Assembly (NCBI RefSeq): GCF_000024885.1
Contig: NC_013512.1
Span: 744,001-808,000 of the forward strand
Origin: Sulfurospirillum deleyianum DSM 6946
GTDB taxonomy: Bacteria > Campylobacterota > Campylobacteria > Campylobacterales > Sulfurospirillaceae
DNA length: 64,000 nucleotides
Reading direction: 5' to 3'
In this document: one piece after another, positions 16,939 to 58,734 of the stretch
How the letters are laid out: the number at the start of each line of letters is the position of its first letter
Numbering within the stretch: position 1 is the stretch's first letter
Translations under genes and position numbers: made by a program
Notes under the pieces: model-generated
Told to the model about the DNA's origin: nothing
Databases searched by the model: none
Seen by the model: only the letters and a program-made list of their open reading frames with translations

Positions 16939-18465
16939 CTCATCTTTCGCACCTAAATCCCAGCAATTCTTGAGTTGCACTTCGTAGTGTAGCAATTATA
17001 CTGGTAAAATCCTTATTGTTCTTTACAATCTCATCAATTTGTGCTATTTTGTCCATTATTTCAATAAACGCTTGCATAGCAATAGAAAGCGTGTAGAGTT
17101 CACACTCCAAATCTTTAAATAATCCACCAATGGTTTTTGGCTCATGGCTGATTCTATTGATGTAGCTGACAATATTGTAAGCAAAGAATGAAAGTGTCAT
17201 TCTAGCAATCAGTGCTTCATAGATTCTATTTTCTTCTTGTCCAAACCCAAAGTATTCTCTGAGCTCTTTATAGCCTTGTTCTATATCCCATCGTCGTTTA
17301 TAAATCTCAATAATCTCTTCATCATTGAGTTCTAAATCGGTGGAGACAATAGGGATGAGATTGTCGGTGGTTTTAATAAAAACAATTTTGAGTTTCCCTG
17401 CATTTTTATGTTCAACAACGGTTGAAAAATAGCTAAAGCGAATCTTCTTGCCATATGTTCCCACTTTGGCATTTTTAAGCTTTTTGTGTTTTTCATACAT
17501 GGCATTCAGTGTTTTTTCTTTGTCATTAAAGTTCCAAATCTTAGTGTTGTTAGCAATTCTTGAAATGACCTTTAGACCCAAATCGTTCATCTCTTGGATA
17601 AAGGCTGGTTTAGAGTACCAACTGTCAACCAGCAAGTAATCAGCGTATATACCACTGTGTACAGCTCTTTTTACCATAGCCAATGCTATCTTAGACTTAC
17701 CCTCCATAATCTCCATTCTTCGTTTGTAAGCGTTGCAACGGATATCGAGTTCTGTACTAAACTCTTCAACTTTAACGCGGGCATAGTTTCCCATGCTCAT
17801 TGCAAAATCTATCATAAAATTTGAATAACCATCACTATAATTCAAAGAAACAACATTGATCCCTCTAATGGTTCGCTTCTCTTTATTGCTCCAAAGTCCA
17901 TCACGACTCCCCTCTATATATTTACCTGTTTTACCCTCAACCGTATCATCCATAATAAAGACTTTTATTGACGAAGCATCTTGGACTTTATGCAAAAGCT
18001 TGATGATTTTTAAAGTGCTTAAAGAGAGAAGTTTTCTCCAGTTGTAGCTACTATTTTGCAAAAGTCTGTAGTAGGTGTCTTTTTTAAAACTCTCATTGCT
18101 TTGGTGCATAAACGAAGATATCTTTTTATTCATCACCAACATATAGACAAAGTGTAATACAACAAGATAGGGGGCTACGCCTTCTCTTTTCTTTACAAAG
18201 TTAGCACGGTGTAAAATACTCTTGATGTTTAAGAGTTGCAGTGTTTGATATATGGGGTTTTTAAGCGTTGTATTTATGGCCGATAGGATCTGTTCTTGAA
18301 GATTCATGGATGATATTCTTTATTTTTATTATAGCTAAAAGTGCCTAATATAGGGCTTTAACAGACTTTTTTCATTTGTCAATATGGAGATGGCACTCTT
18401 CTAAACGCTCGAAAGAATAGCCTTTTTAGACTATTCTTTTATTGGAATTAGGTGCGAAAGCTCAG
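16939..18465 (-). mobile_element. IS4-family insertion sequence, copy 1 (1527 bp)
   Basis: Ends share CTTTCGCACCTAAWTCC as imperfect inverted repeats and the element is flanked by AATATAA on both sides. Identical in length, and in the translated transposase, to copy 2 at 25423-26949, which is in the opposite orientation. Between integrase and alpA; no gene is obviously broken. Family assignment from the transposase Y-(2)-R-(3)-E signature. Confidence 0.88.
16940..18307 (-). CDS. IS4-family DDE transposase (copy 1)
   Basis: 455 residues. DDE residues are suggested by VFIMDDTVEGKTG (about 116-128), YLLVDSWYSKP (about 227-237) and YKRRWDIEQGYKELREY (about 347-363; Y-(2)-R-(3)-E). Transposase amino-acid sequence is identical to copy 2. 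Both copies are intact, so the element may still be active. The stop codon lies in the terminal inverted repeat flank. Confidence 0.9.
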   Translation of the reverse strand: MNLQEQILSAINTTLKNPIYQTLQLLNIKSILHRANFVKKREGVAPYLVVLHFVYMLVMNKKISSFMHQSNESFKKDTYYRLLQNSSYNWRKLLSLSTLKIIKLLHKVQDASSIKVFIMDDTVEGKTGKYIEGSRDGLWSNKEKRTIRGINVVSLNYSDGYSNFMIDFAMSMGNYARVKVEEFSTELDIRCNAYKRRMEIMEGKSKIALAMVKRAVHSGIYADYLLVDSWYSKPAFIQEMNDLGLKVISRIANNTKIWNFNDKEKTLNAMYEKHKKLKNAKVGTYGKKIRFSYFSTVVEHKNAGKLKIVFIKTTDNLIPIVSTDLELNDEEIIEIYKRRWDIEQGYKELREYFGFGQEENRIYEALIARMTLSFFAYNIVSYINRISHEPKTIGGLFKDLECELYTLSIAMQAFIEIMDKIAQIDEIVKNNKDFTSIIATLRSATQELLGFRCER

Positions 18466-25422: not shown

Positions 25423-26949
25423 CTGAGCTTTCGCACCTAATTCCAATAAAAGAATAGTCTAAAAAGGCTATTCTTTCGAGCGTTTAGAAGAGTGCCATCT
25501 CCATATTGACAAATGAAAAAAGTCTGTTAAAGCCCTATATTAGGCACTTTTAACTATAATAAAAATAAAGAATATCATCCATGAATCTTCAAGAACAGAT
25601 CCTATCGGCCATAAATACAACGCTTAAAAACCCCATATATCAAACACTGCAACTCTTAAACATCAAGAGTATTTTACACCGTGCTAACTTTGTAAAGAAA
25701 AGAGAAGGCGTAGCCCCCTATCTTGTTGTATTACACTTTGTCTATATGTTGGTGATGAATAAAAAGATATCTTCGTTTATGCACCAAAGCAATGAGAGTT
25801 TTAAAAAAGACACCTACTACAGACTTTTGCAAAATAGTAGCTACAACTGGAGAAAACTTCTCTCTTTAAGCACTTTAAAAATCATCAAGCTTTTGCATAA
25901 AGTCCAAGATGCTTCGTCAATAAAAGTCTTTATTATGGATGATACGGTTGAGGGTAAAACAGGTAAATATATAGAGGGGAGTCGTGATGGACTTTGGAGC
26001 AATAAAGAGAAGCGAACCATTAGAGGGATCAATGTTGTTTCTTTGAATTATAGTGATGGTTATTCAAATTTTATGATAGATTTTGCAATGAGCATGGGAA
26101 ACTATGCCCGCGTTAAAGTTGAAGAGTTTAGTACAGAACTCGATATCCGTTGCAACGCTTACAAACGAAGAATGGAGATTATGGAGGGTAAGTCTAAGAT
26201 AGCATTGGCTATGGTAAAAAGAGCTGTACACAGTGGTATATACGCTGATTACTTGCTGGTTGACAGTTGGTACTCTAAACCAGCCTTTATCCAAGAGATG
26301 AACGATTTGGGTCTAAAGGTCATTTCAAGAATTGCTAACAACACTAAGATTTGGAACTTTAATGACAAAGAAAAAACACTGAATGCCATGTATGAAAAAC
26401 ACAAAAAGCTTAAAAATGCCAAAGTGGGAACATATGGCAAGAAGATTCGCTTTAGCTATTTTTCAACCGTTGTTGAACATAAAAATGCAGGGAAACTCAA
26501 AATTGTTTTTATTAAAACCACCGACAATCTCATCCCTATTGTCTCCACCGATTTAGAACTCAATGATGAAGAGATTATTGAGATTTATAAACGACGATGG
26601 GATATAGAACAAGGCTATAAAGAGCTCAGAGAATACTTTGGGTTTGGACAAGAAGAAAATAGAATCTATGAAGCACTGATTGCTAGAATGACACTTTCAT
26701 TCTTTGCTTACAATATTGTCAGCTACATCAATAGAATCAGCCATGAGCCAAAAACCATTGGTGGATTATTTAAAGATTTGGAGTGTGAACTCTACACGCT
26801 TTCTATTGCTATGCAAGCGTTTATTGAAATAATGGACAAAATAGCACAAATTGATGAGATTGTAAAGAACAATAAGGATTTTACCAGTATAATTGCTACA
26901 CTACGAAGTGCAACTCAAGAATTGCTGGGATTTAGGTGCGAAAGATGAG
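25423..26949 (+). mobile_element. IS4-family insertion sequence, copy 2 (1527 bp)
   Basis: Same length, ends and transposase as copy 1 but inverted relative to it, so the pair brackets the mobilisation genes like a composite transposon. Unlike copy 1 it lacks identical 7-bp flanks. Confidence 0.88.
25581..26948 (+). CDS. IS4-family DDE transposase (copy 2)
   Basis: 455 residues, identical in translation to copy 1, with the same DDE and YxxRxxxE motifs. Its stop TGA lies within the ATGAG end. Confidence 0.9.
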   Translation: MNLQEQILSAINTTLKNPIYQTLQLLNIKSILHRANFVKKREGVAPYLVVLHFVYMLVMNKKISSFMHQSNESFKKDTYYRLLQNSSYNWRKLLSLSTLKIIKLLHKVQDASSIKVFIMDDTVEGKTGKYIEGSRDGLWSNKEKRTIRGINVVSLNYSDGYSNFMIDFAMSMGNYARVKVEEFSTELDIRCNAYKRRMEIMEGKSKIALAMVKRAVHSGIYADYLLVDSWYSKPAFIQEMNDLGLKVISRIANNTKIWNFNDKEKTLNAMYEKHKKLKNAKVGTYGKKIRFSYFSTVVEHKNAGKLKIVFIKTTDNLIPIVSTDLELNDEEIIEIYKRRWDIEQGYKELREYFGFGQEENRIYEALIARMTLSFFAYNIVSYINRISHEPKTIGGLFKDLECELYTLSIAMQAFIEIMDKIAQIDEIVKNNKDFTSIIATLRSATQELLGFRCER

Positions 26950-57230: not shown

Positions 57231-57234
57231 TGAT

Positions 57235-57259
57235 AAAAGGAGGCGATTTGCCTCCTTTT
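57235..57259 (+). terminator. Terminator after adhesin 2
   Basis: AAAAGGAGGC, loop GATTT, GCCTCCTTTT: a 10-bp perfect stem with T-run in the second arm, followed within six bases by TTACATGTAA (57265). Confidence 0.85.
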
Positions 57260-57348
57260 ATTCTTTACATGTAAAAAATTTTATAACGATACCATCGCTT
57301 CTTTTAGTTTAAATCTATTTTGACTATGATGTGCTCTACAAAAGACAT

Positions 57349-57478
57349 CTTGCAAAACTCCTTTTGCAAGAAAGAAAAGCACCTAGTGTGCAGGGGCATT
57401 CCGCCGAGGAAAACTTAGTGTTAACGTAGCCTTTAGAGCTTTGCTTTAAAGGTGTGCTAAGAGTTCTGCAAGAACTCT
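57349..57478 (+). ncRNA. Structured leader upstream of the ThrE-type exporter
   Basis: Three perfect or near-perfect stems in 130 bases: CTTGCAAAA/TTTTGCAAG (57349-57370), CCTTTAGAGC/GCTTTAAAGG (57430-57452) and AGAGTTCT/AGAACTCT (57460-57478), with a GC-rich single-stranded segment (GGGGCATTCCGCCGAGG) between. No match to a riboswitch class I know. Could be a cis-regulatory RNA, an attenuator or an independent small RNA. Confidence 0.45.
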
Positions 57479-57535
57479 AAAATAGAAAAAGGATACCTTA
57501 CGATTTCACATGAAGAACAGACAAGAATCACGACG

Positions 57536-58267
57536 GTGGTGGTTCGTGTGGCAGTGATGCTTCTTGAATACGGTGCTGAAAGTCGTTTGATTGAACAGCT
57601 CTCTTCTCGTTTGGGTGTTGCTTTAGGGTGTACCTCTGTTGAGATGTCTCTTATTCCCTCTGCGGTTGTTCTCACCACACTTGTTGGTGATTCTTCCGTG
57701 ACGACAACACGACGTGCGCAAGAACAACCTATTAATCTCTCTATTGTCCATCAAATTGTGACGATTTGCATTGAGACAGAGAAAAATCCTTGCGATATTA
57801 TGACGGTTGAGCGAAAATTGATGGCGATTCATGCGGATGCGTATCCTGTATGGTTATTGATTCCTATGATTGGTTTTTCGTGTGCGGCATTTAGCCATTT
57901 GCATGGTGCGGATTGGTCTGGATTTTGGATTACTTTTTTGGCAGCTTCGGTTGGAATGATAGTACGAAGAGAGCTTTCTCATCGCAATTACTCTTTATTA
58001 ATCGTTTTTGCTTTTACCGCATTTGTCTGTACGCTCATTGGTAGTTTGTCCTTTTATAATGGGCTGAGTACTACGCAGAGTGTTGTGCTCTCTTCAAGTG
58101 TTTTATTGCTCGTTCCAGGTTTGCCTTATATCAATTCGATGTTGGATGCTTTTAAAGGTTATATCAGTATGGGATGGGGGCGTTGGACACAAGCGACGTT
58201 ATTGACCCTGATGTCTTCTCTTGGCATTATGCTTGCCATGGGGCTTTTAGGTCTTAAAGGATGGTAA
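57536..58267 (+). CDS. ThrE-type threonine/serine exporter, N-terminal subunit
   Basis: 243 residues from GTG 57536: LLEYGAESRLIEQLSSRLGVALGCTSVEMSLIPSAVVLTT is the soluble DUF1212/ThrE_N region, followed by five membrane helices. In-frame homology-like sequence reaches further upstream (SHEEQTRITTVVV), with no ATG, GTG or TTG; AAAGGA at 57488-57493 would fit a start at ATT 57503. The true start is therefore uncertain and may be non-canonical. Works with the next gene as a two-subunit exporter. Confidence 0.8.
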   Translation: MVVRVAVMLLEYGAESRLIEQLSSRLGVALGCTSVEMSLIPSAVVLTTLVGDSSVTTTRRAQEQPINLSIVHQIVTICIETEKNPCDIMTVERKLMAIHADAYPVWLLIPMIGFSCAAFSHLHGADWSGFWITFLAASVGMIVRRELSHRNYSLLIVFAFTAFVCTLIGSLSFYNGLSTTQSVVLSSSVLLLVPGLPYINSMLDAFKGYISMGWGRWTQATLLTLMSSLGIMLAMGLLGLKGW

Positions 58268-58269
58268 CA

Positions 58270-58734
58270 ATGGCTTGGATACCTCTTTTACTAGATGCGT
58301 TGTGGGCAGCGATTCCCTCCGTTGGATTTGGGATGATTTTTAACGTGCCTCGTTCGACATTACCCTTGTGTGCTTTTGGTGGTGCGTTTACGTACGGACT
58401 AAGAGAAATCTTGATAAACAATGCGCTTTCCATTGAACTTTCGACGTTTATTGCGGCGACTGCGATAGGCATTATAAGTGTTTTTTGGTCTCGTCGTTAT
58501 GTGATGCCTCGTCCTGTGTATACGGTTCCTTCTATTATTCCTATGATTCCAGGGACGTATGCGTATGAAATGATGATTAGCTTAGTTCGAATGAATAGTG
58601 ATGGTGTGAGTGATGTTCTGCTTTCTGGTTTTATTCAAAACGGTTTGCATGCGATTAGCATTTTATTTGCGATTGCTTTTGGATTGGTGTTGCCTTCGAT
58701 GTATTATACCAAGCGTAAAAAACCTATTATTTAG
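58270..58734 (+). CDS. ThrE-type exporter, C-terminal (DUF3815-like) subunit
   Basis: 154 residues from ATG 58270 (AAAGG upstream; ATG 58261 is an alternative overlapping the previous stop). Four to five helices: LLLDALWAAIPSVGFGMIFNVP, LREILINN.., IISVFWSRRYVMPRPVYTVPSIIPMIPG. The PxxxIPMIPG string is typical. Confidence 0.8.
   Translation: MAWIPLLLDALWAAIPSVGFGMIFNVPRSTLPLCAFGGAFTYGLREILINNALSIELSTFIAATAIGIISVFWSRRYVMPRPVYTVPSIIPMIPGTYAYEMMISLVRMNSDGVSDVLLSGFIQNGLHAISILFAIAFGLVLPSMYYTKRKKPII

Follow-up and report, generated by a model that had tools for sequence, protein, structure and literature searches.

A MITE-like insertion and a separate, putative non-canonical start codon in front of thrE in Sulfurospirillum deleyianum

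Prokaryotic MITEs, the ERIC and Correia elements among them, have been reviewed (PMC10969869, of which the available portion is drawn on here). Conserved AUU or AUA start codons are described for infC, cvfC1 and ccpN in the accessible part of another article (PMC13009471). Both kinds of system bear on the region in front of a ThrE-type gene of S. deleyianum DSM 6946, analysed here in a window of 64,000 nucleotides (the whole stretch of DNA studied, NC_013512.1 positions 744,001 to 808,000; coordinates below are those of the window, and all features lie on its + strand). Two things very probably stand side by side at this locus, an IS5-type MITE inserted before thrE and a separate, older non-canonical start belonging to the whole genus.

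The start region of thrE

The thrE-like gene (PF06738; Pfam ThrE, 1.9e-53) occupies 57500..58267, starting from ACG 57500 or ATT 57503, and its partner (PF12821, ThrE_2) occupies 58261..58734. Residues are numbered (P0001) with ATA 57482 as residue 1. The first ATG, GTG or TTG past the upstream stop in this frame is GTG 57536, which is residue 19, and relatives conserve the residues that precede it, confirming the initial annotation's remark that a canonical start is missing at the homologous N terminus. thrE was found in 19 of the 24 Sulfurospirillum genomes. All 19 loci carry the Shine-Dalgarno sequence AAAGGA (57488..57493 in the window), with AAA GGA at residues 3-4 and ACG AT[TC] TC[AG] at residues 7-9, and none has an ATG, GTG or TTG between it and residue 18. 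S. arcachonense likewise has no such codon there; its locus reads TGA CTT AAG GGA TTT CCC ACG ATT TCA, and stops lie directly upstream. The Shine-Dalgarno sequence can pair with the bases that follow it (AAGG-AUA-CCUU, 57489-57499), a tiny hairpin that could mask it; the S. arcachonense equivalent is GGG-AUUU-CCC.

The pattern of change places the beginning of the protein close to this motif. Over residues 9-25 the mean pairwise differences at codon positions 1, 2 and 3 are 0.149, 0.068 and 0.500. Over residues 3-7 they are 0, 0.129 and 0.140, a non-coding pattern, and upstream of residue 3 they are about 0.5 at each position, with no coding constraint. Constraint, seen as a third-position excess, thus begins at codons 8-9. 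Twenty loci from outside the genus were collected: one like that of S. arcachonense, 12 with at least 49% identity, and seven remote ones (at most 34%) that were left unused. All 12 of the closer homologues, which lie outside the ACG-AUY group, have an ATG at residues 3-8. A search of viral contigs found no ThrE relatives.

Canonical codons do occur elsewhere: 8 of the 19 loci have ATG as residue 1, 4 have GTG as residue 19, and every one has ATG as residue 26. The eight with an in-frame ATG at residue 1, upstream of the Shine-Dalgarno sequence, could start there, as could three further genomes with an ATG upstream of residue 1; a start at codon 1 was rejected for the genus, as only 8 of the 19 have the ATG. 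A small upstream ORF at ATG 57510 was also considered. It needs CAT or TAT at codon 10, present in only 6 of the 19, and is not a general explanation.

These comparisons support the non-canonical start suggested by the initial annotation and extend it across the genus (19/19), where a codon of this kind would be the one in use. Conservation of such a start throughout a genus is a modest surprise, and putative control of thrE by the non-canonical start alone is possible.

The codon that the initial annotation had called best placed is ATT 57503..57505, after AAAGGA. Its position and the Shine-Dalgarno sequence are confirmed, but ACG 57500..57502 is placed at least as well. The two candidates lie 9 and 6 nt, respectively, from the Shine-Dalgarno sequence. 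Initiation at AUU 57503 (AUY in the genus), a weak start of the infC and cvfC1 type, with the ACG kept merely as part of the initiation region, is a reading that we hold to be evenly poised. AUU and AUA starts behind a strong Shine-Dalgarno sequence are documented and conserved in bacteria, according to the accessible part of the source (PMC13009471), and codon 8 is AT[TC] in 19/19 (ATT in 11, ATC in 8). Against it, a spacing of 9 nt is rare, being found in 1 of 17 AAAGGA-ATG cases and in 2 of 48 in a broader count, and the ACG is invariant, whereas elsewhere in the gene the third base is fixed in none of the 53 fourfold codons whose amino acid is invariant (0/11 for Thr).

The same invariance, of an ACG present in all 19 genus genomes and in the neighbouring S. 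arcachonense, argues for ACG 57500 itself. Its 6-nt spacing is the modal local one (7 of the 17 cases; 14 of 17 lie at 5-7 nt; 13 of 48 at 6 nt in the broader count). Because the third base is invariant, the spacing is optimal and the homologues of sister lineages have an ATG, ACG may be the start codon of a bacterial chromosomal gene conserved in this genus and in S. arcachonense, although we regard this as tentative and somewhat doubtful. Initiation at ACG involves a second-position mismatch with the anticodon of the initiator tRNA, for which strong rejection is expected, and a limited look through the literature brought up no such start in bacteria. The comparative evidence favours ACG, and on chemistry we lean slightly to AUU.

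It is very unlikely that translation begins at GTG 57536, or internally at ATG 57557, and that the upstream conservation is not at the level of protein. The Pfam ThrE alignment does start at residue 19 and the ATG of residue 26 is universal in the genus, but the third-position-biased change in residues 9-25 speaks for translation of that segment, the homologues of other genera begin upstream with ATG, and a start at ATG 57557 would truncate the beginning of the domain. The initial annotation had named an N terminus at GTG 57536, together with the absence of a conserved structure, as the outcome that would count against it; this codon is GTG in only four of the 19 loci.

A dispersed, structured repeat upstream of thrE

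The three strong stems reported in front of the gene are present. Hairpin A lies at the left end (57348..57371, arms 57348-57357/57362-57371), hairpin D at 57430..57452 (arms 57430-57439/57443-57452) and hairpin E at the right end (57460..57478, arms 57460-57467/57471-57478). Their arms are perfect or near-perfect, and the 201-nt stretch folds better than its shuffles (z -2.77; 2 of 200 shuffles were as good).

The segment that holds them is a MITE, a transposable repeat dispersed in the genome. A search of the S. deleyianum genome (a single contig of 2,306,351 bp) with 57340-57540 gives 27 matches including the thrE copy, and 22 of the others span at least 92 nt with 73-88% identity. The part common to the copies runs from AGAC to CTCT and is 136 bp long (57343..57478 at thrE), so that the repeat is short, multicopy and without a transposase gene. 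It was matched in all 24 Sulfurospirillum genomes, with 1-37 matches per genome, and at the level of the family in 30 of 44 genomes, the matches outside the genus being weaker. A MITE in a 5' leader is ordinary biology; the repeat family is apparently new, since no description of this repeat, or of a Sulfurospirillum MITE, was found in the open-access literature, judged by titles and abstract beginnings.

A set of 65 copies was assembled, 25 of the 27 from the S. deleyianum genome (two short matches were omitted) and 40 from relatives, picked among the longer, better matches. A longer form of the repeat carries a 17-nt insert, TTTTCACAGAAACTGCG or a near-identical sequence, in hairpin D (L049:7494-7646, L051:3054-3206, L053:3030-3180, L054:2936-3089 and L042:10020-10172), and in some copies the end of the insert can pair with the upstream AAAACGCAGT strand. 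Species can differ at orthologous sites in which of the two forms, long or short, they carry. In the S. deleyianum genome two like-oriented copies adjoin, separated by AAT (L042:9878-10172), one having inserted at its neighbour's end.

Covariation was counted after setting aside 11 copies that were long or divergent, which left 54 of the 65. In a six-helix model 95.2% of the cells are paired and 15 of 46 pairs show changes on both sides (5/12 helix pairs in hairpin A, 5/11 in D, 0/8 in E). The cells with both-side changes number 73, compared with 22.4 in shuffles, and slid versions of the model are far worse, a comparison in which the model has the advantage of having been built from the same alignment. 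Because these counts exceed those of the shuffles and the slid versions, the hairpins are maintained, in DNA or RNA; covariation among copies goes beyond that expected of decaying DNA, hinting at a function. The kinship of the copies counts against many independent compensatory events. In the strand test, G.U and A.C pairs number 121 and 53, with shuffled means of 165 and 99.

Eight pairs of copies occupying orthologous sites were compared. In two of them other copies are closer relatives than the ortholog, which ranks 33 and 16 of 64, a pattern that would fit replacement or conversion of copies. The genes that flank the 25 own-genome copies, taken from a crude ORF caller, are oriented (upstream/downstream) +/+ in 11 cases, -/- in 8, +/- in 5 and -/+ in 1. 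Because the copies are related, some of them perhaps through conversion, and the orientations of their neighbours are mixed, we claim no leader function for the repeat.

Termini, target duplications and empty sites

The repeat ends in imperfect inverted repeats of 18 nt. All 18 bp of the left one, AGACATCTTGCAAAACTC (57343..57360), recur unchanged at each end of a 916-bp insertion sequence, and the right one (57461..57478) is 83% complementary to the left. The thrE copy is bounded by a target duplication of AAA (57340..57342 and 57479..57481; AAA/AGAC...CTCT/AAA). Perfect 3-bp duplications flank 37 of the 59 copies that pass a length and end-letter filter (six were dropped, two of which have such a duplication as well), compared with a mean of 14.0 in shuffles, none of 10000 shuffles being as high; the other 22 have no perfect duplication. 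The duplicated triplets are mostly AAT or ATT.

The 916-bp insertion sequence is held by 16 of the 30 loci fetched around DDE_Tnp_1 matches. Its flanking triplets are identical in 15 of the 16 copies, and 14 of these are AAT or ATT. It has two overlapping ORFs with HTH_Tnp_4 and DDE_Tnp_4, which match an IS5-family model below the cut-off, as expected of split halves; we take it to be of the two-ORF type of the IS5 family, in the IS427-like subgroup. The repeat thus has a terminus in common with an autonomous insertion sequence of the same duplication length, in the thrE copy at the left end only, the right end having diverged. Beyond the termini the two show no internal similarity in excess of shuffles. 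MITEs that have only their termini in common with an insertion sequence need no interior derived from it. The repeat is probably mobilised by an IS5-family transposase, judging from these ends and duplications. The 916-bp insertion sequence was not seen in the S. deleyianum genome, where none of 11 PF01609 matches has its ORF length (4 of the 11 loci were inspected). A transposase gene with a 459-aa frame occurs in the window at 17171-17683 and 26205-26717 and has eight copies in the genome.

The repeat lies before thrE in only two of the 19 genomes, S. deleyianum and Sulfurospirillum sp. S9C671. In 16 of the 17 repeat-free genus loci a TATGAT, the probable -10 element of the thrE promoter (57325..57330 in the window), stands 16-19 nt before AAAGGA, in ten of them 18 nt; the remaining locus has no TATGAT. 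In the occupied site of S. deleyianum this distance is 157 nt, and 18 nt when the element and one AAA are subtracted. Strain S9C671 has a further, internally shortened copy of the repeat, which separates the preceding gene from its terminator and is absent from S. deleyianum, so that presence and absence differ at a second orthologous site. The probable terminator of the preceding gene, which is repeat-rich and encodes 1538 aa, is a perfect 12-bp hairpin followed by a T-rich stretch (57233-57261).

The initial annotation had proposed that the stems form a structured RNA controlling amino-acid export. Strong covarying hairpins and a low folding energy would suit a conserved cis-regulatory RNA of thrE, a riboswitch or attenuator, but with the repeat before thrE in 2/19 genomes, 27 dispersed matches beside unrelated genes, mixed gene orientations around the copies and no Rfam match at the gathering score (at a permissive threshold only weak matches, mainly over the upstream terminator), this reading is scarcely credible, and a leader specific to thrE is refuted because relatives have empty sites. 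The structure is conserved, as that of a repeat family and not of a thrE leader. The stems and the missing start codon are both real and are unrelated to each other. Because 17 of the 19 thrE loci have no repeat, the disappearance of the canonical start from the Sulfurospirillum lineage did not depend on it.

Proposed course of events and comparison with described systems

In the lineage of S. deleyianum and S9C671, the 136-bp non-autonomous element would have landed in the short 5' untranslated leader of thrE, duplicating AAA; an IS5-family transposase, with the terminal repeats as its substrate, probably moved it. The insertion would have stretched the distance between TATGAT and the Shine-Dalgarno sequence from 18 to 157 nt and added several hairpins to the leader, and any effect on expression would be incidental. 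In the whole genus, thrE would be translated from a codon other than AUG, GUG or UUG in the conserved hexamer ACG-AUY behind AAAGGA; weak, IF3-sensitive initiation would keep the membrane exporter ThrE low.

The locus offers a transposon footprint told apart from a leader that looks like a riboswitch, and a natural case, running through a whole genus, of a non-canonical start for which two neighbouring codons are candidates. Use of ACG would be a large surprise, and the limits accepted for start codons in bacteria would then have to be revised. The repeat family, with its covarying hairpins, is a model for the reshaping of 5' regions by MITEs.

Compared with infC, cvfC1 and ccpN as the accessible part of the source presents them (PMC13009471), thrE likewise keeps a weak start across species behind a Shine-Dalgarno sequence. 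It differs in that this sequence is only AAAGGA and not extended, in its two adjacent near-cognate codons, and in being a transporter gene. The 5' end of S. deleyianum infC reads TTG AGT AAA, without an AUU start.

The repeat resembles prokaryotic MITEs, as described in the available portion of the review (PMC10969869), in being short and non-coding, in its AT-rich targets, terminal inverted repeats and short target duplications, and in its hairpin-forming transcripts and mostly intergenic dispersal. Unlike the MITEs reviewed there, it combines IS5-type termini with 3-bp duplications, is found mainly in Sulfurospirillum, and has internal hairpins with compensatory changes among its copies. With the 916-bp IS5-family insertion sequence it has in common the 18-bp terminus, at the left end of the thrE copy, and the 3-bp AAT or ATT duplications; the insertion sequence differs in its 916-bp length, its HTH_Tnp_4 and DDE_Tnp_4 ORFs and its dissimilar interior.
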